Shown here piece after piece: positions 6,854 to 61,443 of a DNA stretch of 64,000 nt (positions within the stretch are counted from its first letter, which is position 1; each line of letters starts with the position of its first letter). The notes beneath the pieces were generated by a model. That model ran no database searches, had not been told where the DNA came from, and saw only the letters and a program-made list of their open reading frames with translations. The position numbers and the translations under genes were made by a program. Origin of the DNA: Salipaludibacillus agaradhaerens (GTDB lineage Bacteria; Bacillota; Bacilli; Bacillales; Salisediminibacteriaceae); the NCBI RefSeq assembly GCF_002019735.1, contig NZ_KV917378.1:2568869-2632868 (forward strand), in the 5' to 3' direction.

Positions 6854-6870
6854 GTGACACTATTGACACA
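6854..6870. promoter_or_regulatory. Candidate response-regulator binding site before the BceAB-like genes
   Basis: Two direct copies of TGACAC (GTGACACTATTGACACA) lie about 90 bases before the ATPase start. BceR-like regulators bind short paired elements upstream of a weak promoter in this position. The actual motif of this regulator is unknown, so this is only a candidate. Confidence 0.35.
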
Positions 6871-6900
6871 TTTAAAACGGCTACCTCAATCGGCAGCCGT
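6870..6900 (-). terminator. Terminator after the BceS-like kinase gene
   Basis: ACGGCT and AGCCGT pair with extra inner CC/GG pairs and are followed by TTTT on the reverse strand. The stem overlaps the kinase stop. It separates the constitutive two-component unit from the inducible transporter unit. Confidence 0.55.
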
Positions 6901-8570: not shown

Positions 8571-9188
8571 AAAATCCCCCGCCTCTTTATTCTCGAAATT
8601 TTTATGTAAACATCGTATTTGTGAATTGATTTTATTTCCGAACGTTATGACTCATTTCCGACAGATGGACGCTTTCCGCAGGGCTCGTCTTCAACTCACC
8701 CACTGCCAGTTCCACTACCTTCTTTTATTCACTCATCAATTTAGAAACAAAAACACCCCTTTAGATAATCATATCCAAAGGGGTAAAAATGTCGCAACTT
8801 TTTTATAGACATTGTGACTTTGTTTTAAATATTTTATCTTTTTTACAAACGTCGCAACTTTATTTCAAAGCTACAACACATGTAGCTTTGGAATAAAGTT
8901 TAAGCAGAAATATCTCACAAACCCACAACCTTACGTTAACTTAAAAGTACCCGTTTGAAAAAAAGATTGATCAAAACGGGTTCTTCATGTTTGTGAAACA
9001 TTACGCATCTTTTGTAAGAAAGTTTGATCATTTTCTGTGATTCGATCTTCATCATAAGCACTCGTTCGATGAAGAAGTGCTAACGATTATCCAACACTTT
9101 ATTTCGTTTAACCAGTGCTTCACTTACTTCTTTTCTTGATTGCTGTTCGGATATTTCAAAGGCAGTTTCTTTTCGAGGAACCCTTGCT
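8571..9188. other. Gene-poor stretch with repeat copies
   Basis: No convincing full gene is present. A degenerate family C repeat (GGACGCTTTCCGCAGGGC, about 8664-8697) is followed by palindrome D copy 2, an A/T-rich shared tail, and a larger version of the CCCGTTT...AAACGGG element at 8941-9040. A 44-codon reverse frame (9080-9214, MGSQNGKFRARVPRKETAFE) lacks a clear ribosome site and is not called. Confidence 0.5.
8756..8783. repeat. Palindromic repeat family D, copy 2
   Basis: CCCCTTTAGA and TCCAAAGGGG form the stem, with one changed base relative to the other copies. The following hundred bases (ACTTTTTTATAGACAT, then TTTCAAAGC) also match the DNA after copy 3 at 11204, so the repeated unit is longer than the palindrome. 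Confidence 0.6.
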
Positions 9189-9383
9189 CTAAATTTCCCA
9201 TTCTGTGAACCCATTGATTTTTGGATATTGCATTCTTGACATTACAATATTCACAAGCTGAAGTAATGATTTTTGATTATCTACAACTTTTAAATTATCA
9301 CTTGAATACATTAGTAACTCATCAGAAACTAATATAATCATTTTAAATCTTGCCTTTGAAATGATAACGTTAAGTCTTTTATG
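9189..9383 (-). pseudogene. C-terminal relic of a superfamily 1 DNA helicase
   Basis: A reverse-strand reading contains HKRLNVIISKARFKMIILVS followed by DELLMYSS and about 40 further residues to a stop. KRLNV-(I/A)-(I/L)-(S/T)-(K/R)-A is the conserved motif VI region near the end of many SF1 helicases of the AAA_12/UvrD type. The rest of the gene is missing and there is no start codon with a ribosome site, so it is a broken remnant. Identification rests on one motif. Confidence 0.45.
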
Positions 9384-9513
9384 GTTTTAAATAAACTCTT
9401 AGGCAATCAAAGCTTGGTCACTTAGAACATAGCTGCAAATCATAATATCTCTTTGCCACCCTTTCCTACTCATTCGCCATTTTAAACTCAATTCCTCTCC
9501 ATATCATTATTTG

Positions 9514-10701
9514 TTATGGCAACTTATAAGTATACTTCCTCCACAGCCATTCCATTGGCCCAGATTTATATCGACTTAACCAGTATCGGCTCATGAATAC
9601 TTGAATCGTAAATATCACCACTGCAAGTAAAAAGCCACCAGCCGGATCAACCGATCCAAATAAACCTAGTCCATAGCTGTAAAAAAGTGTTGTACAGATC
9701 AACGTTTGAAGCAAATAGTTAGTAAAGGCCATCCTTCCAACAGGCTGCAAAAAAGCAACAATAACCCTAAATCGTTGTGATCGCATACACACATAGAGAG
9801 CACTTACATAGAAAAGAGCTAGCGCTGGCCCACTTACAGAATACCCGATATACTGAATCACATAATAAGGTGAGCTAATCGAATCGACATAAGATTGAGC
9901 CCAAATGGACAATAGAGCAAAGGGAAATCCAATACAGAAGCTATAATTCCGAATTCGTTTCATCGTCCCTTGATGTTGCTTGGCATTGGTAATTAATCGA
10001 CTTTGCCATGCGTACATACCAAGTAGAAACAGGCCAAGAATGACAGGAGCCATTAGGATATATCCTTGATAAATCATGGCTATATCAACTAAGCGCTGCA
10101 TAAAGATCTCCCAAGCTGATCCATTCGAATAAGCGTATAGAGCTTGATCATACATATCTCCAGCTACTTGGGGAAAGGAATCTCCTGAATCAAAACCTAT
10201 TAACAATAAGAGAGACAGCAACACCAACGGCATGATTAATAATGCTCCCGACCAAACGAGCAATGTCCTATTCTTCTTTTTCAAATAAAAGGGTAGGAGA
10301 AAAGCGATGAGGGCATATAATGTTAAAATATCTCCATACCAAAATAGGAAGAGATGAATGAGTCCAACAACAAGAAGAAAACGAATCCTCCTTCTATAGA
10401 TTGATCCTGCGTGCACCTCTTTCCTTTGGAGTTTTGAAAGGAACAAAGCAAACCCAACTCCAAACAAAAAAGAAAACAAACTAACAAATTTAAATTCAAA
10501 TGCCACCGCCATAATGACCACAACAATCTCATTTAATAGACCCTCTGATTTTGATAAACCTAGTATATCCACAAGCAAAGCTGGTGTAGAAAAATAGCTC
10601 ATATTTACAACGAGTATGCCAAACAACGCTATTCCTCTGAGTACATCTAACTCTAATAAACGTTCCTTCTCCTGTGTTGGAGCTACTTTACTCTCCATCA
10701 T
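9514..10701 (-). CDS. DUF418 family integral membrane protein (YeiB-like)
   Basis: The 395-residue protein has about ten hydrophobic spans, the N-terminal signature LDVLRGIALFGILVVNM and the C-terminal DUF418 block (MAFTNYLLQTLICTTLFY to GPMEWLWR). The biochemical role of this family is not known; it is related to acyltransferase-3-like membrane proteins. Two ATG codons follow GGAGGGGGG; the second, one codon in, has better spacing. The start overlaps the stop of a 33-residue peptide gene, suggesting translational coupling. A possible Fur box upstream hints at iron control. Confidence 0.8.
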   Translation of the reverse strand: MMESKVAPTQEKERLLELDVLRGIALFGILVVNMSYFSTPALLVDILGLSKSEGLLNEIVVVIMAVAFEFKFVSLFSFLFGVGFALFLSKLQRKEVHAGSIYRRRIRFLLVVGLIHLFLFWYGDILTLYALIAFLLPFYLKKKNRTLLVWSGALLIMPLVLLSLLLLIGFDSGDSFPQVAGDMYDQALYAYSNGSAWEIFMQRLVDIAMIYQGYILMAPVILGLFLLGMYAWQSRLITNAKQHQGTMKRIRNYSFCIGFPFALLSIWAQSYVDSISSPYYVIQYIGYSVSGPALALFYVSALYVCMRSQRFRVIVAFLQPVGRMAFTNYLLQTLICTTLFYSYGLGLFGSVDPAGGFLLAVVIFTIQVFMSRYWLSRYKSGPMEWLWRKYTYKLP

Positions 10702-10903: not shown

Positions 10904-11132
10904 GATTATAGCTAGGGGGATTTATGCTCTTAGTAATCGTTACACACACATTTTAGCACCTGCTGGATTTCATGTTGAGCTGCGTACCGCATTAATCTGT
11001 CAAGGAAAGTGTTGGGGATATGTAACACTTTTTCGTTCCAAGCATCAGCTCGCTTTTTCAAAAGAAGATCAACAACTCATCCAAAGACTACTACCTACTT
11101 TAACGAAAACCATGGTTTATATTCTGAACTAA
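10902..11132 (+). pseudogene. Truncated GAF/LuxR-type regulator fragment
   Basis: About 60 residues (HILAPAGFHVELRTALICQG, then WGYVTLFR and FSKEDQQLIQRLLPTL) match the end of the ligand-sensing half of a class of LuxR-type transcription factors. Both the upstream part and the C-terminal helix-turn-helix are gone; a stop follows ILN. No ribosome site is present and the frame starts inside a terminator, so this is a relic. Confidence 0.5.
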
Positions 11133-11203
11133 AACCTGAGCCGCCGCCTTCTTTTATCCATTTCTCAATTTTAGATGTTCTTTTTCTTTTCGACATAAAA
11201 GCA

Positions 11204-11231
11204 CCCCTTTAGATAATCATATCTAAAGGGG
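11204..11231. repeat. Palindromic repeat family D, copy 3
   Basis: CCCCTTTAGA and TCTAAAGGGG flank an 8-base loop. It lies between the truncated regulator fragment and the 3' end of glmS, and shares its downstream flank with copy 2. It might also act as a weak terminator for glmS, although no clear T-run follows. Confidence 0.6.
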
Positions 11232-11306
11232 TAAAACGGTTTAACTTTTTATAAACATCGCGACTTTTTTTCAAAGCCACACAACACACATATGTTGTTT
11301 TATTAT

Positions 11307-13109
11307 TTATTCCACTGTCACACTCTTCGCAAGGTTACGTGGTTTATCCACGTCGCAACCTCTGTGAAGGGCGGCATAGTAAGAGATAAGCTGTAATGGC
11401 AGGACGCTCACCAATGGTGTGAGGTAGTCGTGGACTTTCGGGATGACGATGTTGTCGTCGTCTTCCTGGAAGCCTTCCATACTGATCATGCAAGGGTTAG
11501 CGCCACGGGCTACAACCTCTTTCATGTTACCGCGTAAGTTAAGGTGCACATTCTCTTGCGTGGCAAGACCGATAACTGGTGTGCCTTCTTCAATAAGTGC
11601 AATCGTCCCGTGCTTTAATTCACCACCAGCAAAGCCTTCTGCTTGAATGTATGAAATCTCTTTAAGCTTTAATGCTCCTTCCATACACACATGGTAGTCT
11701 GCGGCACGCCCGATAAAGAAGCAGTTGCGCGAGACGCTGAGATAATCACGGGCAATCTGTTCAAGAACGTCCTTCTGTTCTGTGAAGATTTCCATGGCGT
11801 TCGCTACGATACCAAGCTCTTGCAACGGATCGAAGTTCATTTCCATACCGGATGCACGGGCAGCATCCACCGCCATGATCGCAAGCACAGCCATTTGTGC
11901 TGTGTACGCCTTCGTTGACGCTACGGCAATTTCAGGACCTGCATACGTGTGTAAAGTGTAGTCTGCTTCTCGGGATAAAGTTGATCCCGGAACATTTGTA
12001 ATTGTTAATGTACTGTGGCCTAGCTTTTTCACATTCACGAGAACACCACGGGAGTCCGCTGTTTCACCGCTTTGTGAAATGAAAATAAAGAGTGGTTTTT
12101 GACTTAATAACGGCATGTTATACAGAAATTCGCTAGCAATGTGCGTTTCAACTGGAATACCAGCAATCTTTTCGATTAATTCTTTACCCACAAGGCCTGC
12201 GTGGTAACTTGTACCTGCCGCAATAATATAAATACGGTCCGCTCCTAGAACAGCTTGACGAACGTTTTCATCGAGCTTAATGTTCTCGTTATCATCTTTA
12301 TATTTCGTGATGATGTTCCGAATAACGAACGGCTGTTCATCAATTTCTTTGAGCATATAGTGAGGGTATGTGCCTTTTTCAATGTCACCAGCATCTAGTT
12401 CAGCAACATAAGGAGCACGCTCTACGGTATCACCAGCAAGTGTTTTAATTGTCACATCGTCTTTTGTCACGATGACGATCTCTTCATCCATAATTTCAAC
12501 GAATTCATTCGTCACTTGGATCATCGCCATAGCATCACTTGCTACTACGTTCACACCATCACTCACACCTACAAGAAGTGGACTTTTATTTTTTCCTACA
12601 TAAATTGTGTTTGGATCTTCAAGGTCTAACAGAGCTGTAGCATAAGACCCTTTCAATAAGCTTAACGCTTTGCGGAAGGCTTCTTCTGTGGAAGCACCTT
12701 CATTAGCGAATTTCTCCACTAATTGGACGATGATCTCTGTATCCGTATCACTGACCATCTCCACGTCAGAAAGGTAATCTCTGCGCACATGTTCGTAGTT
12801 TTCAATCACTCCGTTATGAACGATCGTATACCGAGCACTTGTACTTTGGTGCGGGTGAGCATTCAACTGGCTTGGCACACCGTGTGTTGCCCAGCGTGTA
12901 TGTCCGATTCCGACAGTAGCTGACTGCGACTGATCAACGATGTCACGTAATGACGCGATACGTCCCTTCTCTTTATAGACGTGAATGCCGTCATGATTTG
13001 AGATCGCGATACCTGCAGAGTCATAGCCTCGGTATTCTAATTTTTCAAGACCTTTTAAGAGAATTTCCTTTGCATCCTCTGTTCCTACATATCCAACAAT
13101 TCCACACAT
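11307..13109 (-). CDS. glmS: Glutamine-fructose-6-phosphate aminotransferase
   Basis: The 600-residue enzyme makes glucosamine-6-phosphate from fructose-6-phosphate and glutamine, the first step toward UDP-GlcNAc. The start is the ATG of MCGIVGYVG, because Cys (residue 2 before Met removal) must be the N-terminal nucleophile of the glutaminase domain; a longer frame upstream only reads through the ribozyme. Two SIS sugar-isomerase domains follow ([12 protein letters not shown] near 350; the C-terminal [12 protein letters not shown] is conserved). The ribosome site GGGAGG is good. The leader contains a glmS ribozyme, so the mRNA should be cleaved when glucosamine-6-phosphate is plentiful. glmM, normally its neighbour, is 6.6 kb away across the mannitol operon. 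Confidence 0.96.
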
Positions 13110-13128
13110 ACTATCATTTCCTCCCTCG

Positions 13129-13164
13129 GTGGGGCAAGAAATGCTCGGGGCATACTTGCCCCAC
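13129..13164 (-). other. GC-rich hairpin between glmS ribozyme and ribosome site
   Basis: GTGGGGCAAG pairs perfectly with CTTGCCCCAC around a 16-base loop, itself partly complementary. It sits right before GGGAGG, has no T-run, and is not part of the ribozyme core. It may stabilise the cleaved mRNA end or affect ribosome access. Confidence 0.55.
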
Positions 13165-13199
13165 TCTTTATCTTTGTTAGTTGTTATATTTGGAATCAT

Positions 13200-13347
13200 C
13201 GGTACATCAGCCATTGTTCAGAAAGTCGCCTTTCTGGTTTGGGCTCATGCTTTCGGTTGCGATGAACAACCGGGAGGCATCCGCCGAACATTTCGATAAA
13301 CCTCCACCTCGTCAGCTGTGTTTTTCTCGATCTCACAGCCCTGGCGC
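13200..13347 (-). ncRNA. glmS ribozyme-riboswitch
   Basis: The reverse strand shows the conserved order of the self-cleaving glmS RNA. GCGCCAGGGC follows the cleavage point (predicted before the G at 13347). Then come GACGAGGTGGAGGTTTATCG, TTCGGCGGATGCCTCCCGG, and GCAACCGAAAGC with the P3/P4 region. These match the core known from Bacillus and Thermoanaerobacter, where glucosamine-6-phosphate acts as cofactor for cleavage and lowers glmS expression. The exact 3' limit is approximate. Confidence 0.93.
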
Positions 13348-13401
13348 TTTGTATTGCGTTGTCTTACTTGTCTGACCTCCTCTCATGTGTTGAATAGCCT
13401 A

Positions 13402-50289: not shown

Positions 50290-51591
50290 TCAGTTTATCA
50301 GCAAATTCGGCAAGAATGTCACAATTCCAGGAAATATAATAATCAGTAGAATAGCCACGAGATAAATAAATACAAAGATAAGAATATGCCTCATCATTTT
50401 TAATACATTCGTGCCGGCGACCTTCGCTGCAAGAAGACTTGATAATCCATAGGGAGGTGTGACAGTTCCTAAACGAATGGCCATTACGGTAACGATTCCT
50501 GCTACCACAGGATCAATTTGAAGACCTTGCATAACTGGCAACAGCAGCGGCACAAAGATAAGCATCGCCGAATTGGGTTCCATAAATGTGCCTAAAAAAA
50601 CATATAGCATGGTCAGCATTAATAAAAATAACAGCGGGCTAAAATTATTTTCCAATAAGAAATCAATCAATGGCTGCATCGCTTGGTAGTAAGTTAAAAC
50701 CCAAGATAACAGTGCAGCTGCCGCAATTAAAATATAAATTGTTGCTGAATCTATAACGGCTTTCCGCGTTACCGCCATGTATTCTCTAACATTTCGTTGT
50801 TTGCGAATAAAGAATGCGACGATAAAGACATAGATAACGGCAATACTAGCTGCCTCAGTTGCTGTAAAAACGCCAGACATAATCCCAACAATGACAATTA
50901 AAAATAAACTTAATGGGAAAATCCCCTTCTTTAAGGCAACAATTTTTGATAGTTTTTCATCTTCTGCTAAGCCAATTTCTTTATTATCTATGGCCCCAAC
51001 ATCATTTTTAGCCGCATAAAGATACGCATAAATCATCTGAGTAATTCCAATTAAAATACCAGGCACAATCCCTGCAATAAATAATGCAGCGACTGACGTT
51101 TGAGCTAGTGCGCCATAAACAATGAGTAATATACTCGGCGGGATGATCGAGCCAATTGTCGATGAAGCGGCAGTAACTGTTGCTGCAAATTCCCTACTAT
51201 ACCCCGCCTTTATCATGGCAGGAATGAGAATTCGTCCTAATGACGCAACATCAGCAACCGATGACCCCGATATCGCACCAAAAAAAATACTTGTTATAAT
51301 ATTCATATGCGCTAGACTTCCTTTGAACTTGCCTACTAATGCTTTTGAAATATATATTAAGTCATCCGTCACTTTCGTTAAGTTCATTAAAGCTCCAGCA
51401 AAAATAAATAAAGGAATTGCTAGCAAGGTAAAGCTTGAGAATGATTCAATCATAATGGAACTCACTTGTGTTAAACTGACAAGTGGCTCTAGCAAAATAG
51501 GAACTGATGAGGCAATGATAATACTGAAGGCAACGGGTACGCCTAATAGTAAACAAACAAAAAAGATAGCAATAATGGAAAGCAGTATCAC
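50290..51591 (-). CDS. TRAP transporter large permease (DctM-like)
   Basis: The 433-residue protein has about twelve spans and the DctM family blocks FAGALMNLT, GAISGSSVADVASLG and SRIP-like AATSSIGSIIPPSI. It is the ion-coupled channel half of a tripartite transporter for an organic or sugar acid. The GTG start follows AAGGGGTG and overlaps the DctQ stop by four bases. It is the last gene of the operon. Confidence 0.92.
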   Translation of the reverse strand: MILLSIIAIFFVCLLLGVPVAFSIIIASSVPILLEPLVSLTQVSSIMIESFSSFTLLAIPLFIFAGALMNLTKVTDDLIYISKALVGKFKGSLAHMNIITSIFFGAISGSSVADVASLGRILIPAMIKAGYSREFAATVTAASSTIGSIIPPSILLIVYGALAQTSVAALFIAGIVPGILIGITQMIYAYLYAAKNDVGAIDNKEIGLAEDEKLSKIVALKKGIFPLSLFLIVIVGIMSGVFTATEAASIAVIYVFIVAFFIRKQRNVREYMAVTRKAVIDSATIYILIAAAALLSWVLTYYQAMQPLIDFLLENNFSPLLFLLMLTMLYVFLGTFMEPNSAMLIFVPLLLPVMQGLQIDPVVAGIVTVMAIRLGTVTPPYGLSSLLAAKVAGTNVLKMMRHILIFVFIYLVAILLIIIFPGIVTFLPNLLIN

Positions 51592-52085
51592 TGTTTCTTC
51601 ACCCCTTTTCTACTAAACACATTTTTAAACTGTTCGAGGTGAAAATACGACATGAACAGCGAACCAACTAAAAAGGCTGAATAATAGTAAATAAGGGATG
51701 GAGGAGATGATAGAAACCGGATAGAAACCAATTCACTTCGTGACAAACCAGAATTAAACGCAGCCACCCCTATGAAAATTAAAATACTGATAGCAAAGAG
51801 AACTAACACATAGACAATCATATTTTTTATACGTACGTGACTATCACTCATATAATCTGATAAGATGTCAATCTCTAAATGTAGTTTTTCTTTTACAGCA
51901 ATAGCAGACCCCATAAAAACAAGCCACATAATAGAAAATTTACGGACTACTTCAATTTCAGGAATAGAATAAGAAAATACATATCGGGCAATAACACCTA
52001 TAAAAAGGGATAGAGCTAACGTTATTAGCATCGCAATGCTTATGGCACTAGCCACTTTGCTTATCAACTCTTTTAGCTTCTTCAT
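51588..52085 (-). CDS. TRAP transporter small permease (DctQ-like)
   Basis: The 165-residue protein has four spans. The central RKFSIMWLVFMGSAIAVKEK is the DctQ signature. It binds DctM to make the membrane complex. GGGGGTGTG lies before the ATG. Confidence 0.9.
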   Translation of the reverse strand: MKKLKELISKVASAISIAMLITLALSLFIGVIARYVFSYSIPEIEVVRKFSIMWLVFMGSAIAVKEKLHLEIDILSDYMSDSHVRIKNMIVYVLVLFAISILIFIGVAAFNSGLSRSELVSIRFLSSPPSLIYYYSAFLVGSLFMSYFHLEQFKNVFSRKGVKKQ

Positions 52086-52118
52086 TCTTAATCACACCCC
52101 CATATTCAAAGAAGACAG

Positions 52119-52164
52119 GGAAGGTATAGCGGCTCCATCAACAAGTTTTGGAGCCGTTCCTTCC
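52119..52164 (-). other. Stem-loop between the DctP- and DctQ-like genes
   Basis: CGGCTCC and GGAGCCG pair, extended by GGAAGG/CCTTCC beyond an internal loop. No T-run follows, so it is more likely an mRNA-stabilising element that lets the binding protein be made in excess of the permeases. Confidence 0.5.
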
Positions 52165-52175
52165 TAGCAAAAAAT

Positions 52176-53219
52176 TTAGTTAAAAATATCTTCTACAATA
52201 TCAAGAACATCGTGTTCTTCTGCTATCTCTTCCATTTGAAGTCGTGATTTTTCAATGAATTCTTCACGGTCTGGGTCAGTAAATGTAACACCAAATTCGT
52301 CAATTAATACGTCCATACTTTCGTCTGCCTGTTCAAATGCTTTCGCAATGTATTCTGGTTGTATAATGTCAGCTGCCTGCTGGATTGCTTCTTTATGCTC
52401 ATCACTCAAGGACTCATAGCGGTCATTATTCATGACAATAAACCCTAATGTGAGGTTGTGCTGGGTACGTGCTACATACTCTCCAACTTCCCCGAAGCGT
52501 TGCTCAATCATAGCGTCTAGACTGTTTTGCGAGCCTTCAGCAACGCCAGTTTGAAGAGCCGAATACACTTCATTAAAGTCAATTGTCGTTGGATTTGCTC
52601 CTAAATTTCTCCACCATTCCATTTCCGCAGAACTGCCTCCACTTCTCATAGCTCGTCCTTCCAAATCAGATGCAGTTTCAATAGGAAATGTACTAATAAT
52701 ATTTCGTTCTAGACCACCTGCAAACATGACATTTTTCAGGCCTGGACTTTCTATAAGTAGATCTTCAAAATAGGAAAGCTTTCCATCACTATTCACGATT
52801 GTTTCATAATGTTCTTGATCTTCAAAAAGGTAATTTGTACTTAAAATATCAAAGACGGGATTGTGCTCAGCAAACCATCCTGTATCAGAATAAATCATGT
52901 CAATATCTCCGGAGATAACAGATTGGTAAAGGCTAGAAGCATTGCCCACCGTTCCCCCGGTATGGACAGTAAACGTAATTTGCCCATCACTTTGGTTTTC
53001 AATCTCTTCTGTAAACGCTACCAAAGTTTCCGCCAACAAAGAATCACTTGGATTAATTGTAGCTGCTACTAATTCAATACTCTCTCCACTGTTAGTTTCA
53101 TTCTGACTATTGCTGTTATTGCTATTTGTTCCATTCGCATTACCGCACGCTGTCAACACAAGTATCAATGCAACCGCACTAGAGACACCAACCAACTTTT
53201 TCAGGGAATTCATTTTCAT
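52176..53219 (-). CDS. TRAP transporter substrate-binding lipoprotein (DctP-like)
   Basis: The 347-residue protein has a lipoprotein signal with VLTAC (Cys25), an Asn/Ser-rich linker, then the DctP fold. The family pattern is visible in MRSGGSSAEMEWWRNLGANP (about 180-200), including the arginine that holds the substrate carboxylate. The ligand should therefore be an acid. GGAGG precedes the ATG. The linker of Asn and Ser is unusual but harmless. Confidence 0.92.
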   Translation of the reverse strand: MKMNSLKKLVGVSSAVALILVLTACGNANGTNSNNSNSQNETNSGESIELVAATINPSDSLLAETLVAFTEEIENQSDGQITFTVHTGGTVGNASSLYQSVISGDIDMIYSDTGWFAEHNPVFDILSTNYLFEDQEHYETIVNSDGKLSYFEDLLIESPGLKNVMFAGGLERNIISTFPIETASDLEGRAMRSGGSSAEMEWWRNLGANPTTIDFNEVYSALQTGVAEGSQNSLDAMIEQRFGEVGEYVARTQHNLTLGFIVMNNDRYESLSDEHKEAIQQAADIIQPEYIAKAFEQADESMDVLIDEFGVTFTDPDREEFIEKSRLQMEEIAEEHDVLDIVEDIFN

Positions 53220-53247
53220 TTTTCATTCCTCCTTGTAGGTTTTAATT

Positions 53248-54339
53248 TTAGCGATAAAGAACTTGTTCATCGACAATTACATGTTGAATATACTGCCGTA
53301 AATACGTAAATGTTATATGAATTTTTCCTTCTCTGTCCTGTTTAATAGAAGGATACGAAAATTCTGGTTCGCTGTTTATATCTTGACTTTCTATAACCGA
53401 TTTCACATGCTTCCATGTCAAGCCTTCATCCTCAGAGACGGCAATGGAAAGAGGGTTTCTAACCACACCCCAAATGGCATCTGACTGATTCTCTTTATTA
53501 ACACCGACTTTATCCATGTCACTTGGATCAAACCATGGTGGCCTATTTTCCTTTGGTGGGCGCTCTTCAGCATTTATATTGTTAAATACCATCACAAGTT
53601 GTCCTCTGGACAGCTTTGTCGCTTGAATAGAAGCATTGTTATTAGGGAGGTGTGTAGGAGATGGCTTGCTCCACGTAAAACCTAAATCATTGGACACCGT
53701 CCGATAAATCTTATCCGCTTTACGACTTCTGAAAAAACCAACGAGCCGTTGACCTTCTAAATGCACTAGCGACAAGTGAACAAGACCTTCACTTCCTTCA
53801 ATTTTAGTCTCTTCCCATGTGTTACCGTTATCTTTAGACCTTTTTACGACACTATAATCATTTCCTAAAAACCCATTCGTTGATTTCAGACAATAATACG
53901 CTGGTAAAATAATGTCATTATTTTCAGTAATAACGGGCGGATTTCGGACAAACGTTCCCGGTTTATCAAATAAATCTTTAACCTTACTCCATGTCACCCC
54001 TTCATCATCTGACACGCTATATCTGACAACGGAAGAATCCTGATGCACCGCATACTGTGCCGTATAGATTAACCAAATTTGCCCATTAGGATTTTTAAAT
54101 AGAATAGGATTTTGCTCGGATCTTGTTGAATCGTCAGAAACAGCTTGAGGTGGATGCCATGTTCGGTTCTCTTTAGAAAATGTTGATACCATAACCGTAA
54201 TATCCGCCTTACCTTCTTTAGAGCCGCCGAACCAAGTACAGAGTAAATCACCACTGTCTAGTTCCAACAGGTTAGAGGCATGATTATGTGGATAGAGAAT
54301 AGGTATCTTATACTGTTCATCAATAAATGTTCCAAGCAT
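53248..54339 (-). CDS. BNR-repeat sialidase-like protein, cytoplasmic
   Basis: The 363-residue protein is a six-bladed propeller of the BNR_2/sialidase-like type. Four Asp-boxes are visible: SVSDDEGVTWSKV, RSKDNGNTWEE, TVSNDLGFTWSKP and AVSEDEGLTWKHV. It has no signal peptide, unlike secreted sialidases, and the N-terminal arginine motif (RIP) appears as KIP. It may act on an imported acidic sugar derivative as a hydrolase, lyase or isomerase-like enzyme. It sits between the transporter and the SDR, in the same transcript. True sialidase activity is not assured. Confidence 0.75.
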   Translation of the reverse strand: MLGTFIDEQYKIPILYPHNHASNLLELDSGDLLCTWFGGSKEGKADITVMVSTFSKENRTWHPPQAVSDDSTRSEQNPILFKNPNGQIWLIYTAQYAVHQDSSVVRYSVSDDEGVTWSKVKDLFDKPGTFVRNPPVITENNDIILPAYYCLKSTNGFLGNDYSVVKRSKDNGNTWEETKIEGSEGLVHLSLVHLEGQRLVGFFRSRKADKIYRTVSNDLGFTWSKPSPTHLPNNNASIQATKLSRGQLVMVFNNINAEERPPKENRPPWFDPSDMDKVGVNKENQSDAIWGVVRNPLSIAVSEDEGLTWKHVKSVIESQDINSEPEFSYPSIKQDREGKIHITFTYLRQYIQHVIVDEQVLYR

Positions 54340-54350
54340 AGTAGCCCTCC

Positions 54351-55097
54351 TTAATTCATATAGGTTCCGCCATTAATGTTGATGGTTTCCCCTGTGATAA
54401 AGCCTGATAAATCAGAAGCGAGAAATAATGCTGCACCTGCTATATCTTTCGGTTTTCCTAAGCGCTTCAACGGCACCTTAGTTAGTACATTTTTTCGATA
54501 TTCATCATGCCATTGTTGAACCATTTCTGTCTCAATAGGCCCTGGTGAGAGCCCATTTACCACAATATTATAAGGCGCCATTTCTAAAGCAAGATGCTTA
54601 GTTAAATAATCCACAGCTGCTTTTGAGGCGCCATACGAGGGTGCTGCATTCGGGTGGCCAGATTTTGCCGCAGTAGAGCTGATGTTAATGATTTTTCCTT
54701 GCTTTTGTTTGATCATATATAGGAGTACTGCTCGTGAAAAATACAAATTACCATTTAAATTAGTATCAATGACACGTTTCCAATCATTAATAGCCATATC
54801 AAGCGTTGAAGAGCGTTGATTGACACCGGCATTGTTCACTAAAATATCTACCCGCTGGAACTGGTTTATTGCTTCTTGGACCACTTTCTCCGCCGTTTCT
54901 TCTTCTCTTACATCGCCAGACATGGCAATACATTCAACACCTTTTAGACTTATATCTTCATAAAGTGCCTGTAGACGGGCATGGTTAGTTCCTGTCATGA
55001 CTATCTTAGCCCCATTTTCTGCATAGGTTCTTGCGATTTCCCGTCCAATACCCCGGGTTGCTCCTGTGATAACGGCTACTTTGTCTTTTAACATCAT
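54351..55097 (-). CDS. SDR-family oxidoreductase of the acid-sugar operon
   Basis: The 248-residue classical short-chain dehydrogenase has the cofactor loop TGATRGIGREIA, NNAGVN, catalytic Ser in INISSTAA, YGASKAA with Tyr/Lys, and the C-terminal GxxINGGTYMN typical of the FabG/gluconate-5-dehydrogenase type. It probably oxidises or reduces a hydroxyl of the imported sugar acid. It lies between the PdxA-like and sialidase-like genes with gaps of 11 to 19 bases. Confidence 0.88.
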   Translation of the reverse strand: MMLKDKVAVITGATRGIGREIARTYAENGAKIVMTGTNHARLQALYEDISLKGVECIAMSGDVREEETAEKVVQEAINQFQRVDILVNNAGVNQRSSTLDMAINDWKRVIDTNLNGNLYFSRAVLLYMIKQKQGKIINISSTAAKSGHPNAAPSYGASKAAVDYLTKHLALEMAPYNIVVNGLSPGPIETEMVQQWHDEYRKNVLTKVPLKRLGKPKDIAGAALFLASDLSGFITGETININGGTYMN

Positions 55098-55116
55098 ACC
55101 CGCCCTTTCTTCGCGT

Positions 55117-56130
55117 TTATTCTATGCATGAACCTAATTCCTTAGGGGCCATCTCAGCAGCTATTTTAAGTGCCTCAATCATACTCCTTGCATCAGCTTT
55201 TTGTTTTCCTGCAATATCAAAGGCTGTACCGTGATCCACGGATGTACGGATGACGCCACCACGAAGGCCAACGGTAATATTAACCCCCTCTTCCAATCCC
55301 AATACTTTAATAGGAACATGCCCTTGATCATGGTAGCAGGCAACAACGATATCGAAATCTCCTTTTACAGCTCGATAGAATAGGGTATCTGCCGGATAAG
55401 GACCAGAAACTGAAATACCCTCTTGTTGCGCTTTTGTTATACCAGGGACTAATTTTGTTTCCTCTTCACCATGACCAAATAATCCGTTTTCACCTGCATG
55501 TGGATTGATTCCGCACACAGCAATTTTTGGTGACGTATACCCTGCTTTTCTTAAAGCTGTATCAGCTAAACGTATTACTTGATAGGTGCGCTCTTCTGTA
55601 ATTGATTCGATAGCATCCAACAAGCCAAGATGGGTTGTCAAATGGATGACTTTTAATTTAGGTGAGCTAAGCATCATTGAATATGTCTTTGTGTTCGTAA
55701 GTTCTGCTAAAATTTCAGTGTGGCCTGGGTAAATATGTCCTCCTTTATGCAGGGCTTCTTTATTTAACGGTGCCGTAGAAACACCATGTATTTTAAACGT
55801 CTTTGCTAACTCAATAGCTTTTTCTAAATAACGAAAAGCTGCATTTCCAGCATCGCCAGACACACGACCGTAAGGAAGATCTGCTGGTAATAGATCTAAG
55901 TCAATACAATCAATGCTACCATACTGAAAGTGAGCGTCATCCACATCTCCTATCGTATTGATCTTTAAATCAATCTCTAATAATTGAAGTTCCCTTTGAA
56001 GGATTTTCTCATCACCGATAACAAATGGCCGACAGCGTTCATAAATGGCTTCATCACGGAAGGCTTTACAAATAATTTCTGGACCTACTCCTGTGCAATC
56101 CCCCATCGTTACTGCAATAATCGGTTTCAT
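55117..56130 (-). CDS. PdxA-family 4-phospho-acid-sugar dehydrogenase (PdxA2-like)
   Basis: The 337-residue enzyme has the PdxA landmarks TMGDCTGVGPEI, zinc-site YPGHTEILAE, AVCGINPHAGENGLFG and CYHDQGHVPIKVLG. True PdxA makes vitamin B6, but the gene is next to a DUF1537 kinase. Such pairs have been shown to phosphorylate four-carbon acid sugars (threonate, erythronate) and then oxidise and decarboxylate them to dihydroxyacetone phosphate. GGAAGGAGG precedes the ATG. The B6 role is unlikely because the other pdx genes of that pathway are absent. Confidence 0.88.
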   Translation of the reverse strand: MKPIIAVTMGDCTGVGPEIICKAFRDEAIYERCRPFVIGDEKILQRELQLLEIDLKINTIGDVDDAHFQYGSIDCIDLDLLPADLPYGRVSGDAGNAAFRYLEKAIELAKTFKIHGVSTAPLNKEALHKGGHIYPGHTEILAELTNTKTYSMMLSSPKLKVIHLTTHLGLLDAIESITEERTYQVIRLADTALRKAGYTSPKIAVCGINPHAGENGLFGHGEEETKLVPGITKAQQEGISVSGPYPADTLFYRAVKGDFDIVVACYHDQGHVPIKVLGLEEGVNITVGLRGGVIRTSVDHGTAFDIAGKQKADARSMIEALKIAAEMAPKELGSCIE

Positions 56131-56147
56131 TTTGCTCCTCCTTCCCG

Positions 56148-57314
56148 TTAAGGTAATAGTTTTTGATAAATGCTCTTTATATCATCAATTGTCAGTTCCT
56201 TTGGATTATTATTTAATAATCGCGTCACCTTGGAAGCAGCCACCGCTAATTCATCTAAATCCTCATTTGTGACACCGAAATCTGCTATATTTTGAGGAAT
56301 ATTTAGCTTTGCAGTCCAAGTTTCAATAAGCTCTACGACGTCTCTAGCTACCTTCTCTTTTGGTTTCCCTTCAATTGATAACCCCATAGGTTCAGCAACT
56401 AAATTTAAGCGGTCTATGATGGCATTCATGTTAACATTCATAACGTGTGGCAGTAACATGGAATTAGCTTCTCCATGAGGAATATGATATTTCCCTCCGA
56501 GTGGATAAGCCAATGCATGCACTGCAGCTGTACCAGCGGCTGTTAAAGCCATTCCTCCATACATAGAGCCAACTAACATTTTCTCCCTTGCTTCTATAGA
56601 AGAGCCATTTTCATAAGCAATTAAAATACTAGATGAAATGAGTCGAATAGACTCCAATGCAAACATATCGCTAAATGGATTTGCTTTATTAGAAATAAAG
56701 GACTCTAAAGAATGGGTAAAAGCATCCATACCTGTGGCCGCTGTTATGGACTTAGGTAAGCTCAAGGTTAATGATGGATCAAGGACAACTAAGTTTGGAA
56801 GTAGATACTGACTGACTATCCCGACCTTTAGCTCCTCATCAGGAAGTGTTACGATAGCATTTGGTGTCACTTCCGAGCCTGTACCAGATGTTGTTGGGAT
56901 TAATATGGTTGGAACACCTGGCTTTTCGACTTGATTAGTCCCGAGCATGTTCTCAACTGAAAGGGAGTTTGTCATAAGAACAGCAAGAATTTTCGTAGCA
57001 TCTAGTACACTACCTCCACCAATACCGATCACCACATCATATCGTTCACCTTGAATATTCTCATAAACTTCTTCTATATTATCAATTGTCGGTTCCGGTA
57101 ATATGTCAATATTCACGTCCACTTTTGCTCCCATAGTAAGCAGCTGATCTTCAATGATATGAGTAAATCCTAGATCTTGAATAGCTCCTTGGGTAACGAT
57201 AAGAGCGTGACCAATCGAGTCCGATAGTCCTCCAAGAGGTTCTTTAAGATCTTTTATTACATGAGACCCTAACATAATGTGTTTCGCCGTTTGAAAATGA
57301 GCTTGCTTCTTCAT
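56148..57314 (-). CDS. Iron-containing alcohol dehydrogenase
   Basis: The protein of about 388 residues is a group III Fe-dependent alcohol dehydrogenase. It has GIGGGSVLDATKIL (NAD binding), TTSGTGSEVTPNAIV, and metal ligands in MDAFTHSLESF and YPLGGKYHIPHGEANSMLLPH. It would reduce or oxidise an aldehyde such as glycolaldehyde, lactaldehyde or a semialdehyde made by the lyase. The ATG of MKKQAHF is chosen because the longer frame overlaps the DapA-like gene deeply; the ribosome site (GAAAGTTGGTG) is modest. Confidence 0.88.
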   Translation of the reverse strand: MKKQAHFQTAKHIMLGSHVIKDLKEPLGGLSDSIGHALIVTQGAIQDLGFTHIIEDQLLTMGAKVDVNIDILPEPTIDNIEEVYENIQGERYDVVIGIGGGSVLDATKILAVLMTNSLSVENMLGTNQVEKPGVPTILIPTTSGTGSEVTPNAIVTLPDEELKVGIVSQYLLPNLVVLDPSLTLSLPKSITAATGMDAFTHSLESFISNKANPFSDMFALESIRLISSSILIAYENGSSIEAREKMLVGSMYGGMALTAAGTAAVHALAYPLGGKYHIPHGEANSMLLPHVMNVNMNAIIDRLNLVAEPMGLSIEGKPKEKVARDVVELIETWTAKLNIPQNIADFGVTNEDLDELAVAASKVTRLLNNNPKELTIDDIKSIYQKLLP

Positions 57315-57330
57315 GACTACACCAACTTTC

Positions 57331-58209
57331 TCATTTTTGCCAATATTTTGATAATACTTGTCGTAACTGTTCTTCAACTTCTTGACTGACGTCACGAATG
57401 GGATGTATTGGCGCCCCTACTTTTATTCCCTGGACTTCCAGTGCTTTTTTTATCACTGCTGGAATGGTACCTTTTGAAAAAAGGGCTCTAATAGGAGCTA
57501 ATTTTTCTTGGGCCTGACGTGCTTTGTCCCTTTCACCTTGTTTCCAATACTCATAAATGTTATTAACAACGCTTGGTACAATATTTGCAGTAGCGGCTAC
57601 AGCCCCTGTACCTCCCGCTTCTAAAGTATCGAGAATGAGAGAGTCGGTTCCAGCGAGTACGACAAATTCCTCCTCTGCTGTTACCCGGATATAGTTCTCG
57701 ATGAGCTCAAACTGTCCGCTACTATCTTTAATCCCGACGATGTTTTTTTCCCTCGCTAATTCACATACTGTTTCCGGTTCCAATGTCACACCCGTCTTTT
57801 TAGGGATGTTATACATGAGAAGCGGAAGTTCTACCGCTTTAGCTATTGCGCGATAATGATCAATCAATTCATCTTGAGTCGGCTGGATAAAGTAAGGTGT
57901 GATAATAGACAAAACGTCTGCACCAGCTTCTTTTAATACTTTGCTCAACTCTATGACTTCCTTTGTGCTGTTGCTACCGGCGCCAACAATCAGAGGAACT
58001 GCACCATTTACTTCCGTTGCCACCGTTTTTGTAAATGCTACTTTTTCTTCAGTGGTGAGCATATGAAATTCACCATTTGTGCCGAGAATAAATAATCCAG
58101 CTGCTCCCTTGCCAAGTAATTCACGTGTCAATTGCACCGTTACAGAGTGATTAATGCGTTGGTCTTCGGTGATGGGCGTTACCATTGCTGGAATAATGCC
58201 ATGTATCAT
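57331..58209 (-). CDS. DapA/NanA-family aldolase or dehydratase
   Basis: The 292-residue TIM barrel belongs to the class I lyases of the dihydrodipicolinate synthase/N-acetylneuraminate lyase superfamily. The Schiff-base lysine is in GIKDSSG (about 160), the tyrosine in MYNIPKKTG (about 132), and the GTNGEF loop takes the place of GTTGE. The superfamily splits or dehydrates 2-keto sugar acids, so here it is probably a catabolic aldolase rather than a lysine-biosynthesis enzyme. It starts three bases after the kinase stop. Confidence 0.88.
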   Translation of the reverse strand: MIHGIIPAMVTPITEDQRINHSVTVQLTRELLGKGAAGLFILGTNGEFHMLTTEEKVAFTKTVATEVNGAVPLIVGAGSNSTKEVIELSKVLKEAGADVLSIITPYFIQPTQDELIDHYRAIAKAVELPLLMYNIPKKTGVTLEPETVCELAREKNIVGIKDSSGQFELIENYIRVTAEEEFVVLAGTDSLILDTLEAGGTGAVAATANIVPSVVNNIYEYWKQGERDKARQAQEKLAPIRALFSKGTIPAVIKKALEVQGIKVGAPIHPIRDVSQEVEEQLRQVLSKYWQK

Positions 58210-58212
58210 TGT

Positions 58213-59499
58213 CTATTTCCCTCCTAGCGCCAGATAAGCATGGACCAATGAATGTTCTTCGCCGAACCCTCCAGCTTTTGTAATTGTTAATAGCTCATAT
58301 TTCCCTTCCAATACTCCAACCGGAACACCTTCTTCAATCACATCTATAAGATGGAATTGATCACATCCAATGTGTTCAGCTACCCTTTTAGCTGTATCAC
58401 CACCTGTAAGGATCGCCCGACCAATGGATATGCTCTCCATTAATTGTTTCACTAAAATACCTATGCTGCTCGATATCATGTAACTTAATTCTGCGTTAGT
58501 GATTTTTTTCTCTTTAGCAAGCTTTTGAACGCCTCGTCTAGTCTCAGTATCAGCCATAGTATATAAAGCCACATTTTGTTCACTTCTATACGCCATCATC
58601 GCTCGTTGATACGCTTTTTCCAGTTCTTTTTTTTTCGAATCCTCTGACTTCAGAAGATTGGCGGTAAGAATATCTATTCCTACGATTGATGTTTCTTCAA
58701 GTAAATAGTCTAATTGCTTTCTCGTCATATCGTGTACGCTTCCTACGCCGATTAAAATAGGTCCTTGGCCAAAATTAAGTTTATTTTTAGGTACGTCTGC
58801 TCCCTTGGATAAATACATAGCGAGTTGCTCGGCCATTCCAGCAGATCCACACCAAACAAATGGTTCAATATAATGAAGGAAAGAATGAAAAAGTGTATGG
58901 AGGTCCTCACGATTGGCAGAATCACACACGATAATTTCCACATTATCTTGTCTTAGCTCATGAATTTTTTCTTGAACATGACTCTTGCCATTTGAAAGGT
59001 CATCAATTGTAATTGAGCCAATTTTTCTATCCGATGTTTCTTCGATGATTGTTTGGACAGCTGAGCTTTTAATAGGGGTACTTACATCGTTAGCAAAATA
59101 GGTTTTTTCTAATAAATGATTTCCAACATAAATATTCCCATTTCTTATTATGCGATGATTGTCTGGATATCCAGGTGCCATTACAATGAATTTTGCATCA
59201 CTATGGTTCAAAATAGCATCCAATTCGACACCAATATTCCCTCTCATGGTTGAATCAACTTTTTTATAAATCCACTTCATATCATATGATTTTACTGCTT
59301 CAAGTGCCTGTTTCACCTTTTCATAAGCTTCATGATAGGGTGATGAACGACTGTCCGTATCCAATACGAGTATGTCTATATCCTTATCTATCAATGCCTC
59401 TTTATTTATAAGCACTTTTGTCTGAAGATGTCTTCGTGCAAATTGCACCCCTGTGTCATTTGCACCTGTTAAGTCATCTGCAATGATTAAGACTTCCAT
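58213..59499 (-). CDS. DUF1537 four-carbon acid sugar kinase
   Basis: The 428-residue protein has the N-terminal substrate motif IIADDLTGANDTGVQFA and the C-terminal nucleotide motif LTGGDTAKRV of the acid sugar kinase family (OtnK/DtnK/LtnK type). These phosphorylate threonate, erythronate or 3-oxo-tetronate at O4. The ATG of MEVLIIADD follows GCGGGAGGTGATGAG; six codons upstream overlap that site. It is the first gene of the operon, behind a cre site and a dyad. Confidence 0.9.
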   Translation of the reverse strand: MEVLIIADDLTGANDTGVQFARRHLQTKVLINKEALIDKDIDILVLDTDSRSSPYHEAYEKVKQALEAVKSYDMKWIYKKVDSTMRGNIGVELDAILNHSDAKFIVMAPGYPDNHRIIRNGNIYVGNHLLEKTYFANDVSTPIKSSAVQTIIEETSDRKIGSITIDDLSNGKSHVQEKIHELRQDNVEIIVCDSANREDLHTLFHSFLHYIEPFVWCGSAGMAEQLAMYLSKGADVPKNKLNFGQGPILIGVGSVHDMTRKQLDYLLEETSIVGIDILTANLLKSEDSKKKELEKAYQRAMMAYRSEQNVALYTMADTETRRGVQKLAKEKKITNAELSYMISSSIGILVKQLMESISIGRAILTGGDTAKRVAEHIGCDQFHLIDVIEEGVPVGVLEGKYELLTITKAGGFGEEHSLVHAYLALGGK

Positions 59500-59519
59500 C
59501 TCATCACCTCCCGCCAAAT

Positions 59520-59533
59520 AGAAAACGCTTTCA
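59520..59533 (-). promoter_or_regulatory. CcpA cre site before the acid-sugar operon
   Basis: TGAAAGCGTTTTCT on the reverse strand matches the cre consensus at all but the last base and sits 20 bases before the kinase start, where it would act as a road-block. Confidence 0.7.
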
Positions 59534-59566
59534 ATGTAATTTCATCTTAAGGGGAGGTAAAAAAAA

Positions 59567-59586
59567 TTTCAACTAATTAGCTGAAA
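59567..59586. promoter_or_regulatory. 20-bp dyad, candidate operator of the PrpR-type regulator
   Basis: TTTCAACTAATTAGCTGAAA is a palindrome with one non-matching pair. It lies between the regulator terminator and the cre site, about 70-85 bases before the operon start. No -24/-12 (sigma-54) promoter is visible near it. Confidence 0.5.
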
Positions 59587-59633
59587 AAAATATATTATTA
59601 AATTTAAATAAGTATTTTGTTTTATTTTGCAAC

Positions 59634-59662
59634 AAAAAACCTCAATAACTTATTGAGGTTTT
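59634..59662 (-). terminator. Terminator of the PrpR-type regulator gene
   Basis: AAAACCTCAATAA pairs with TTATTGAGGTTTT and is followed by TTGTTGC; the stem holds the last codons of the gene. It separates the regulator from the operon. Confidence 0.7.
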
Positions 59663-61443
59663 ATCGATCTATTCATTTTTCGCCACAATGTCGAACGATT
59701 CATTCCTAATCGCTTCGCTGTTTTTGATTGATTTTCACCTTCTTGTCTATACACTTCTTTAATCACATCTCGTTCAATCCCTTCCATCGTTTGCTGAAGA
59801 TTAATAGGTACAAAGGTTCCGTTTCCATATGAAGGTTCATTTTGTACTTCTTTTAACGTTTGCTCTACGTGTTTGATATAAACATCCGAGGATCGTTGAA
59901 CAAGTCGTTTAACAACCTTCCTTAGTTCAATCATATTACCATACCAAGGGTAGTTCAGCAGCTTCACCATAGCCTCCTTTTCAAGTCCAATCACCTGTTT
60001 TCCATATAACTCATTGAAGTAGAGAATAAAGGTATGAATATAATGCTCTAATTTTTCTTCACGGGAACGCAAAGGAGGAAAAAACAGTTCAAACTGTTTA
60101 ATCATTTTTTTCAAATTCTGCTGAAAACGTTCGGTAACTTCAATGAATCGTTCCTCCCCTCCCACCATCGAAAATACCGATTGAAAGGAGCCATGCTCAA
60201 TAGCTTCTGCTAGTCTTTTTTGCTGCGTTGATGTTAGCTTTTCTAAAAAACAAAAATGCACTATATCTTGCTCATTAAACTCACCTAAAAAAGTCATCAC
60301 GCGATTGAAAGTACTTGTACTGGGATGATTAAAACTAATTTCTGTAATCGTCCCCTGTTTAAAACGTGGGCTCTCCCATAAAATTCGGAGAAGCATTCGC
60401 TTTCCAGTCCCTCGTTCACCTACAATCGTAAAAGGGTTGTTGTTAGACGTTTGAATAATGGTGTTTATTGCGTCATGATAAAGGGCGTCAGATGCAATTA
60501 ACTGAGGGATATTTTCCATATTTGAATCGTAGAAAATGACTTCAGCTTCTGATTTATCAAAGGCGTCACTTCTTTCAAATTCAATAAAATTATAAACCGT
60601 CAGTGCTGAGTTGCTTACTCGGCCAATATTCATACGATATGGTTGGCGAAATGGACTGTCACTAACAAAAAAAGTAATTGGATAATCGTGCATTTCTTGC
60701 TTTAAAGCAATCGAAATATTTGGGTGAAGCGCTAAAAAATTTGACTGCTGAATACTTGAAAATTGTTTCCTTAACGCTGTATTTGCAAAAATCACTTCTC
60801 CATCTTCTGCTAAGAGAGTTACAGGATTCGTCAATTGATTTAATAAACGATCAAATAGTTCTGCTCTTGATGAATACTTTGATATTTCATATTTCAATCG
60901 TTTAGCTTTATTAAATGCTTCGTATACTGACTCTTTTCCAGATGTAATCAAAACACCTTGTACACCAAGGGCAGTGGCGTTTTTTACTGTTACTGCATCC
61001 CCAACAATAATTTGTATCCCTTGTTCTTTAAGCTCTTTTAAGGTGTCGATAACTTCTGATTCTTCCTTAACAACTCTGTACTCAACATCGACATTAATTA
61101 CTGACGAAACCGCTTCAAAGCTATAAATTACATTTTTAAAGCCGACCATTCCAATTTTTGCATGATAACTCTTTAGTAACGTCAATATACGGAGAATATC
61201 ATAGCCGGATATATCAATATCTATAACAGGAATGGCTGTGCTTTCTCGCAACACTTTCGCTGTTCCACCTCTACTAATAATGACATCAAAGGATTCCTTT
61301 GACCTTTTATACTCATTCAGTAAACGCTTACTTTCGTCCAAATCAGCAACATGTATGCTAATTGTAAACTCCCATAGTTCATGTTCCATAGACTTAATTA
61401 ATTCTGCTAACCCTTTATACGGCGCAATTAATAAAACCTTCAT
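59650..61443 (-). CDS. PrpR-type regulator with degenerate AAA+ domain
   Basis: The 597-residue protein has an N-terminal PrpR_N sensor domain (about 1-180; SRGGTAKVLRESTAIPVIDI is its signature), a PAS domain (about 200-300), an AAA+ ATPase of the sigma-54 activator type, and a C-terminal Fis-type helix-turn-helix (SKTAKRLGMNRSTLWRKMNR). Walker A is GERGTGKRML, but the GAFTGA loop that contacts sigma-54 is missing and the ATPase is poorly conserved. It probably acts as a sigma-A activator or repressor, like TyrR. The sugar acid or a product is the likely ligand. AGGGAGG precedes the ATG. Confidence 0.82.
   Translation of the reverse strand: MKVLLIAPYKGLAELIKSMEHELWEFTISIHVADLDESKRLLNEYKRSKESFDVIISRGGTAKVLRESTAIPVIDIDISGYDILRILTLLKSYHAKIGMVGFKNVIYSFEAVSSVINVDVEYRVVKEESEVIDTLKELKEQGIQIIVGDAVTVKNATALGVQGVLITSGKESVYEAFNKAKRLKYEISKYSSRAELFDRLLNQLTNPVTLLAEDGEVIFANTALRKQFSSIQQSNFLALHPNISIALKQEMHDYPITFFVSDSPFRQPYRMNIGRVSNSALTVYNFIEFERSDAFDKSEAEVIFYDSNMENIPQLIASDALYHDAINTIIQTSNNNPFTIVGERGTGKRMLLRILWESPRFKQGTITEISFNHPSTSTFNRVMTFLGEFNEQDIVHFCFLEKLTSTQQKRLAEAIEHGSFQSVFSMVGGEERFIEVTERFQQNLKKMIKQFELFFPPLRSREEKLEHYIHTFILYFNELYGKQVIGLEKEAMVKLLNYPWYGNMIELRKVVKRLVQRSSDVYIKHVEQTLKEVQNEPSYGNGTFVPINLQQTMEGIERDVIKEVYRQEGENQSKTAKRLGMNRSTLWRKMNRSIKPQ

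Follow-up and report, generated by a model that had tools for sequence, protein, structure and literature searches.

We analyzed a 64,000-nucleotide stretch of the Salipaludibacillus agaradhaerens genome (assembly GCF_002019735.1, contig NZ_KV917378.1, positions 2,568,869 to 2,632,868 of the forward strand; hereafter the window), in which a cluster of ten genes at positions 50290-61443 may encode the catabolism of a seven-carbon sugar acid. In the interpretation that we favor, with a probability of roughly 0.4, a C7 3-deoxy-2-ulosaric acid would be split into pyruvate and a four-carbon acid, which would be converted to D-threonate and then to dihydroxyacetone phosphate (DHAP) and CO2; 3-deoxy-D-lyxo-heptulosaric acid (Dha), an unusual pectin sugar from rhamnogalacturonan-II (RG-II) in the cell walls of land plants, fits as the substrate. 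We infer this route from the conservation of the enzyme core, the lyase residues, loci with a YhcH-family gene, a kinase-PdxA fusion, a separate tetronate operon, and a linkage to hexuronate genes. More tentatively, it may be the first recognized route of Dha catabolism, in which an aldolase resembling dihydrodipicolinate synthase (DHDPS) would act in reverse to yield D-threonate and then DHAP, and in which a BNR protein, located in the cytoplasm, would act on ulosonates and carry a Tyr/His pair where sialidases have Tyr/Glu.

Domain and model scans bore out the ten genes and families named in a first-pass annotation of the window: DctM, DctQ, DctP, BNR_2, short-chain dehydrogenase/reductase (SDR), PdxA, Fe-type alcohol dehydrogenase (Fe-ADH), DHDPS family, DUF1537 (SBD_N+NBD_C), and PrpR_N, all on the minus strand. 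In the proposed pathway, a tripartite ATP-independent periplasmic (TRAP) transporter, replaced elsewhere by an SSS, DASS-type, Nramp-like, or ABC transporter, would import the acid. The BNR/sialidase-like propeller, probably cytoplasmic (53248-54339; PF13088, 224 bits), would free or open the ulosonate, together with a YhcH-family anomerase in some enterobacteria. The DapA-family class I aldolase (57331-58209; PF00701, 272 bits) would then cleave the C7 ulosarate by a Schiff-base retro-aldol reaction to pyruvate and the C4 semialdehyde acid D-threuronate. The latter would be reduced to D-threonate by Fe-ADH (56148-57314; PF25137/PF00465), and the DUF1537 acid-sugar kinase (58213-59517; PF07005+PF17042) would phosphorylate it to D-threonate 4-phosphate. 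Finally, the PdxA-like dehydrogenase/decarboxylase (55117-56130; PF04166, 351 bits) would oxidize and decarboxylate this phosphate to DHAP and CO2. By this mapping, pyruvate would derive from C1-C3 of the substrate, C4 of the tetronate from the aldehyde, and the carboxylate of the tetronate from the far end of the substrate.

A seven-carbon 3-deoxy-2-ulosaric substrate is predicted because a lyase and an aldehyde reductase placed ahead of the kinase and PdxA would supply them with a C4 acid. With the stereochemistry worked out by hand, D-lyxo Dha gives D-threonate as the product. Dha is the natural C7 acid known to us whose stereochemistry fits, and we know of no other abundant natural 3-deoxy-heptulosaric acid. 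On chemical grounds, 3-deoxy-D-manno-oct-2-ulosonic acid was rejected as the substrate, since its aldolase product, D-arabinose, is no acid and no substrate of the kinase or PdxA, and sialic acids were rejected for the same reason. Dha is a constituent of RG-II (PMC8218411, PMC6353982, PMC7939467), and a commercial standard of it does not exist (PMC8218411).

The distribution of the gene set was investigated with the BNR protein as the query. Among 397 genomes of the order (E ≤ 1e-20), it was found in 15, including that of the window, and 20-kb stretches were read around the gene in the other 14. Genes for the DapA-like lyase, Fe-ADH, DUF1537 kinase, and PdxA adjoined it in every case (14/14 plus the window), the regulator was present in 14 of the 15, and a close SDR homologue (at least 52% identity) in 11, the window included. 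The PdxA proteins shared 47-77% identity across Bacillota loci. The entire operon, TRAP genes included, was also present in Halalkalibacter hemicellulosilyticus JCM 9152 (L017), a genome from another collection. Furthermore, a BNR relative occurred in 314 plasmid records, of which Rhizobium, Sinorhizobium, Pantoea, and Agrobacterium account for 250. Fourteen plasmid loci were opened, and the 13 with BNR identity of at least 33% were counted: all 13 had the lyase, Fe-ADH, and PdxA, 11 had the kinase, and seven had a distant SDR. The module was not there in the fourteenth, a haloarchaeal locus with 28% BNR identity. In the Sinorhizobium meliloti AK57 copy (L045), the lyase, ADH, and kinase frames are split, perhaps by sequencing errors.

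In Caballeronia (L042, 5022-7328), the kinase and PdxA form a natural fusion of 768 aa. A search with PdxA also led to a Niallia taxi megaplasmid (L053), where the regulator, lyase, ADH, kinase, and PdxA stand together and no match to BNR, SDR, or TRAP was found; genes for a D-2-hydroxyacid dehydrogenase and an MFS-like carrier come after PdxA there (11032-13397). Because the enzyme core recurs in both Bacillota and Proteobacteria, the cluster is not a chance grouping. The gene set is common to a number of soil and plant bacteria. BNR matches L018-L022 and L049 (23-30% identity) were dropped as they lie outside the module, and L016, L023, and L024 were set aside. A phylum-wide BNR search gave matches in two of 398 genomes, one being the window's own; the other (L072) was dropped as distant and different in context. 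In that locus (6710-10445), the distant BNR relative (~30% identity) has a rhamnosidase-like gene as its neighbor and genes resembling those of arabinose isomerase and fucosidase in the vicinity (named by eye).

We next consider the lyase. In a tally of 29 rows, the window included, Tyr133 and the Schiff-base Lys161 were kept in all 29, and N45, F107, and Arg/Lys138 in 25. The Bacillus DHDPS 1xky has T45, Y107, and R138 at the same positions; the residue at 138 holds the carboxylate group of the C4 semialdehyde. In the DHDPS reaction, pyruvate condenses with a C4 semialdehyde acid to a C7 diacid, with roles for the catalytic Tyr107 and the GTTGE motif. The proposed lyase reaction would, by analogy, be this chemistry reversed. 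The window lyase scored 234 bits with the DHDPS model, above the TIGR00674 cut-off, and 178 bits at best with NanA models. The module lyases share with DHDPS the family, Lys161, Tyr133, and Arg/Lys138, but in 25 of the 29 rows differ by Tyr107 to Phe and Thr45 to Asn; the window lyase has F107 and GTNGE. The two other DapA copies of the genome are canonical DHDPSs with PYYN and GTTGE, and in a tree they stood apart from the main-clade module lyases, some joins lying on long branches. A role of the cluster's enzyme in lysine synthesis was rejected on account of these two copies. A fourth DapA-family gene of the genome (L064 4220-9291) lies near tripartite tricarboxylate transporter-like and LacI genes (by eye), in another acid-catabolic locus.

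For the Fe-ADH, the most likely start codon is the ATG at 57314 (388 aa) rather than the longest-frame GTG at 57395, because 15 Bacillota homologues measure 386-393 aa. D224, H228, H293, and H307 (numbered from the longest frame) were invariant in 27 sequences. Its best models were ErcA, followed by sulfoacetaldehyde reductase, lactaldehyde reductase, and 4-hydroxybutyrate dehydrogenase, all scoring well below cut-off. The substrates of the latter three enzymes are short, mostly acidic aldehydes.

A DUF1537 kinase and PdxA2 together take D-threonate to DHAP. The cluster's kinase scored 311 bits with the D-threonate kinase model NF047819 (cut-off 450), which was still its best NCBIfam model. 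The same model was best for all nine other module kinases tested and for the paralogue in L061, always below cut-off; as at most three DUF1537 models were matched, and this paralogue outside the module shares the best model, the assignment is a weak pointer. PdxA scored 341 bits with the D-threonate 4-phosphate dehydrogenase model NF002891 (cut-off 583). A PdxA-family partner is encoded in the kinase's operon and, as described above, fused to the kinase in L042. The cluster has in common with the D-threonate pathway (DtnK and PdxA2) two adjoining enzyme families and the best kinase model, but it adds a conserved block of DapA-family lyase, Fe-ADH, BNR, and mostly SDR. Vitamin B6 synthesis by this PdxA was rejected, as PdxS is present in the genome. 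The kinases of L046, L047, L048, and L051 have 339-342 aa, some 80-90 aa under the usual length, and those of L046 and L047 align with the D-threonate kinase model over about the first 125 residues only.

About 25 kb past the right end of the window, the genome has another DUF1537-PdxA pair, accompanied by a GntP permease (L061 8074-11966, on G000:C1). This operon has no lyase, ADH, or BNR gene, and is by its gene content a plain tetronate-type operon. The first-pass annotation had suggested that the substrate of the cluster is larger than a tetronate, that the DapA-like enzyme may release pyruvate and a piece of four carbons or fewer, and that the ADH would handle an aldehyde. Context and sequence support a substrate of this size, the release of pyruvate and a C4 piece, and the role of the ADH, with the tetronate-type operon standing apart from the cluster and the lyase-ADH-kinase-PdxA core kept in Niallia without BNR and SDR. 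Between both DUF1537 operons lies a glucuronate/mannonate-type operon (L080 11689-17720; G000:C1 2641-2648 kb) containing UxaC (by family search) and, by eye, UxuA-like, SDR, KDPG-aldolase, kinase, and glycosidase genes; together the three operons form a sugar-acid island of about 41 kb.

The BNR protein is sialidase-like in fold. Its structure model (pLDDT 89.6) showed the six-bladed sialidase propeller typical of GH33, and 49 of the 50 Foldseek matches listed were sialidase entries, the remaining one being a designed protein (TMq 0.68-0.76). In hidden Markov model alignments, H188 aligned with a sialidase Glu located 16 residues before an Arg, and R204 with an Arg of sialidases; we take this Glu to be the catalytic one, and from the spacing alone presume R294 to be Arg3 and H20 to stand in place of Arg1. 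H20, D46, R132, H188, R204, R206, R294, Y329, H341, and R348 were identical in all 29 rows. Of the GH33 Tyr/Glu nucleophile pair, Y329 is thus kept and Glu is replaced by His. Because this replacement occurs in 29 of 29 rows, the protein is not a canonical GH33 enzyme, and plain sialidase action is not supported so far; it may cut a ulosonide or open a ring or a lactone. No signal peptide was seen by eye at the N-termini of the 29 rows, except that L048, whose longest frame begins upstream of the annotated start, was set aside. For the SDR (54351-55097; PF13561, 218 bits), which had been suggested to set up a keto group, the occurrence of close and distant homologues given above (11/15 and 7/13) supports no defined role.

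In three of the 13 plasmid loci, two from Pantoea and one from Klebsiella, a YhcH-family gene lies between BNR and SDR (identified by Pfam in L039 and by phmmer in the others). YhcH supplies the open form of sialic acid, a ulosonate, to the NanA aldolase (PMC8141875). Since YhcH adjoins BNR and SDR and opens ulosonates for NanA, these genes support a ulosonate as the likely lyase substrate in those three loci. The module resembles sialic acid (nan) catabolism, which has TRAP or SSS uptake, sialidase, YhcH, and NanA, in its transporter classes, a sialidase-fold protein, YhcH in these plasmid loci, and a NanA/DapA-family lyase, which is encoded in all module loci. In contrast, it ends in a DUF1537 kinase and PdxA instead of the N-acetylmannosamine route, its BNR protein shows no sign of a signal peptide and carries His where the catalytic Glu would be, and its lyase scores higher with DHDPS than with NanA models.

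Module genomes were also linked to hexuronate genes. The hexuronate isomerase UxaC was found in 11 of the 15 module genomes and in 118 of the 382 other genomes of the order (Fisher p 0.001), or in 8 of 10 module genera and 48 of 125 others (p 0.013). In 7 of these 11 genomes, and 5 of their 8 genera, no more than 50 kb separated UxaC from the module (p ~5e-6 if placement is random, with each genus represented by one genome); the 50-kb limit was set after the distances had been seen, and kinship was controlled by genus count only. One genus (g48) contributes three genomes in which the distance from module to UxaC is 9 kb and genes for GH28 and altronate dehydratase stand between or next to them. 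The window's genome has a pectin region at 3.80-3.82 Mb containing UxaC, GH28, and a GH88-family gene. GH28 occurred in 6 of 15 module genomes and 35 of 382 others (p 0.002), and by genus in 4 of 10 and 14 of 125 (p 0.03), or in 5 of 10 and 13 of 125 (p 0.004) if one genus with GH28 only in its other members is moved; as evidence this link was rejected as weak and confounded by kinship. On an Agrobacterium fabrum plasmid (L070 5552-7504), a GH127 beta-L-arabinofuranosidase and a sugar ABC transporter adjoin the module. Dha in RG-II is reported to carry arabinofuranose. Among the candidates of a genome-wide association study are genes on S. meliloti pSymB for DUF1537 kinases and for a protein of the dihydrodipicolinate synthase family (PMC12904279).

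Besides the limits given with the hand-worked stereochemistry, the kinase models, and the hexuronate linkage, several points weigh against the Dha route. The kinase and PdxA are under the D-threonate equivalog cut-offs, and two Pantoea plasmids have no DUF1537 gene anywhere on the plasmid. The lyases of four proteobacterial loci (L040, L043, L044, and L047) come from a separate DapA subfamily that has T45 and Y107 but lacks Arg/Lys138, and for these the residue argument does not hold. UxaC is absent in four of the 15 module genomes, GH28 is present in only six, and the clustering of sugar-acid operons may have general causes. In the loci read, no glycosidase specific to RG-II was noticed adjoining the module. 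The YhcH family was found neither in the whole genome of the window nor in any of the 16 Bacillota loci searched; since this genome has no YhcH-family gene, the role of YhcH would here be missing or filled by another protein. The route also leaves the steps of the SDR and the BNR protein unexplained.

Other substrates were weighed against Dha. One alternative is that a ulosonic acid other than Dha with seven or more carbons, derived for instance from a microbial polysaccharide, or a conjugate that BNR cuts first, enters the same lyase-ADH-kinase-PdxA sequence. The chemical logic defines chain length and acid groups more firmly than it does the compound itself; the sialidase fold of the BNR protein with five invariant Arg among the tallied positions would suit such a substrate, as would rhizobial-type ABC transporters, which may carry larger solutes. 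We regard this as unlikely, as no other abundant natural 3-deoxy-heptulosaric acid is known to us, the BNR plasmids come mostly from the four genera named above (250/314), and Bacillota modules are linked to hexuronate genes. An explanation by two substrates is distinctly improbable. In it, imported D-threonate or erythronate would feed the kinase and PdxA, and a second acid, brought in by the same transporter, would be handled by the lyase, ADH, BNR, and SDR. A DUF1537 kinase and PdxA alone are enough for D-threonate, and D-threonate kinase was the best likeness of all kinases tested, but the genome already has a DUF1537-PdxA-GntP operon, and the lyase, ADH, and PdxA stay linked in Bacillota and Proteobacteria while transporters change.

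The least probable alternative is a C6 route, in which the lyase would split a 2-keto-3-deoxy hexonate into pyruvate and glyceraldehyde, the ADH would form glycerol, and the kinase and PdxA would take a by-product. The linkage of the module to hexuronate genes agrees with it, as does the likeness to the fungal galacturonate pathway, in which an aldolase gives pyruvate and an aldehyde that is then reduced (PMC6353982). However, the fungal pathway has a C6 substrate, glycerol as its product, and no DUF1537 kinase or PdxA; a C6 route would leave the kinase and PdxA without a substrate even though the core occurs in 15 of 15 genomes; the cluster has no dehydratase; and KDPG-aldolase and PfkB-type kinase genes already lie beside UxaC in the genome.

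The remaining genes of the cluster encode the TRAP transporter and the regulator. The large permease DctM (50290-51591; PF06808, 333 bits) shares 74-89% identity with those of the TRAP-bearing relatives L017 and L025-L027, and is followed in position by the small permease DctQ (51588-52085; PF04290, 66 bits) and the solute-binding protein DctP (52176-53219; PF03480, 168 bits). The best PDB sequence matches of DctP were 4nx1/4ovp, 4mnp (named N-acetylneuraminate-binding), and 4pf6; its structure model was too poor for use (pLDDT 53.7). Transporter and regulator genes vary among module loci. Carriers other than TRAP were of SSS (PF00474, L028), Nramp-fold (L030), and CitMHS/DASS (L035) type, and several rhizobial-type records had ABC transporters, among them one with an oligopeptide/dipeptide annotation. 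Outside the window, Pfam was used to type three of the module carriers, and sequence likeness or record annotation the rest.

The first-pass annotation had described a ten-gene cluster. Nine of these genes, from the DUF1537 kinase to DctM, form a tight run with gaps of -4 to 90 bp. The regulator gene (59650-61443; PF06506, 172 bits, PF25601, and PF02954) probably forms a separate transcript, because a distance of 132 bp sets it off upstream of this run and a perfect 11-bp inverted repeat, accompanied by a T run, stands at its end (59638-59660, minus strand). This terminator-like hairpin was not among the nine matches of a terminator scan of the window. As for its designation as PrpR-type, the regulator does have a PrpR_N domain, followed by a degenerate AAA+ domain with Walker A kept and a Fis-type helix-turn-helix, but without the GAFTGA motif, which is missing from all 16 regulators read (the window and 15 homologues), it does not resemble an ordinary sigma-54 activator. 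Such PrpR_N proteins with Walker A and without GAFTGA are possibly a sigma-70-type branch. Control by sigma-54 was rejected for want of GAFTGA and of a -24/-12-like site ahead of the operon, where one simple pattern was used that matched twice elsewhere in the window.

Upstream of the kinase gene, also on the minus strand, a possible sigma-70 promoter of the operon, TTGAAA-17-TAAGAT (59544-59572; 9/12), was located, such matches being no commoner than in shuffles (35 found, against 41 expected). A catabolite-responsive element (cre)-like site for CcpA (59520-59533) matched a cre consensus without mismatch, and none of 300 shuffled sequences was equally good; it would fit a carbon-catabolic operon. 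Among 17 upstream regions, the match was full in three (the window, L025, and L026), with one mismatch in seven and two in seven, the last group being no better than shuffles. With a full match in 3 of 17, cre control was rejected as a firmly conserved trait of the relatives.

The view that the cluster fits no known pathway was not contradicted by the titles and abstract beginnings of the open-access papers listed, which contained neither Dha catabolism nor a matching gene set; subscription papers and preprints lay outside this scope, and a published match is possible. The analysis turns a vague annotation into a four-enzyme hypothesis with defined substrates and products. If the Dha route is true, it would provide a bacterial fate for one of the rarest plant sugars and a natural source of D-threonate, and many plasmid proteins labelled as dihydrodipicolinate synthase and exo-alpha-sialidase would have other functions.

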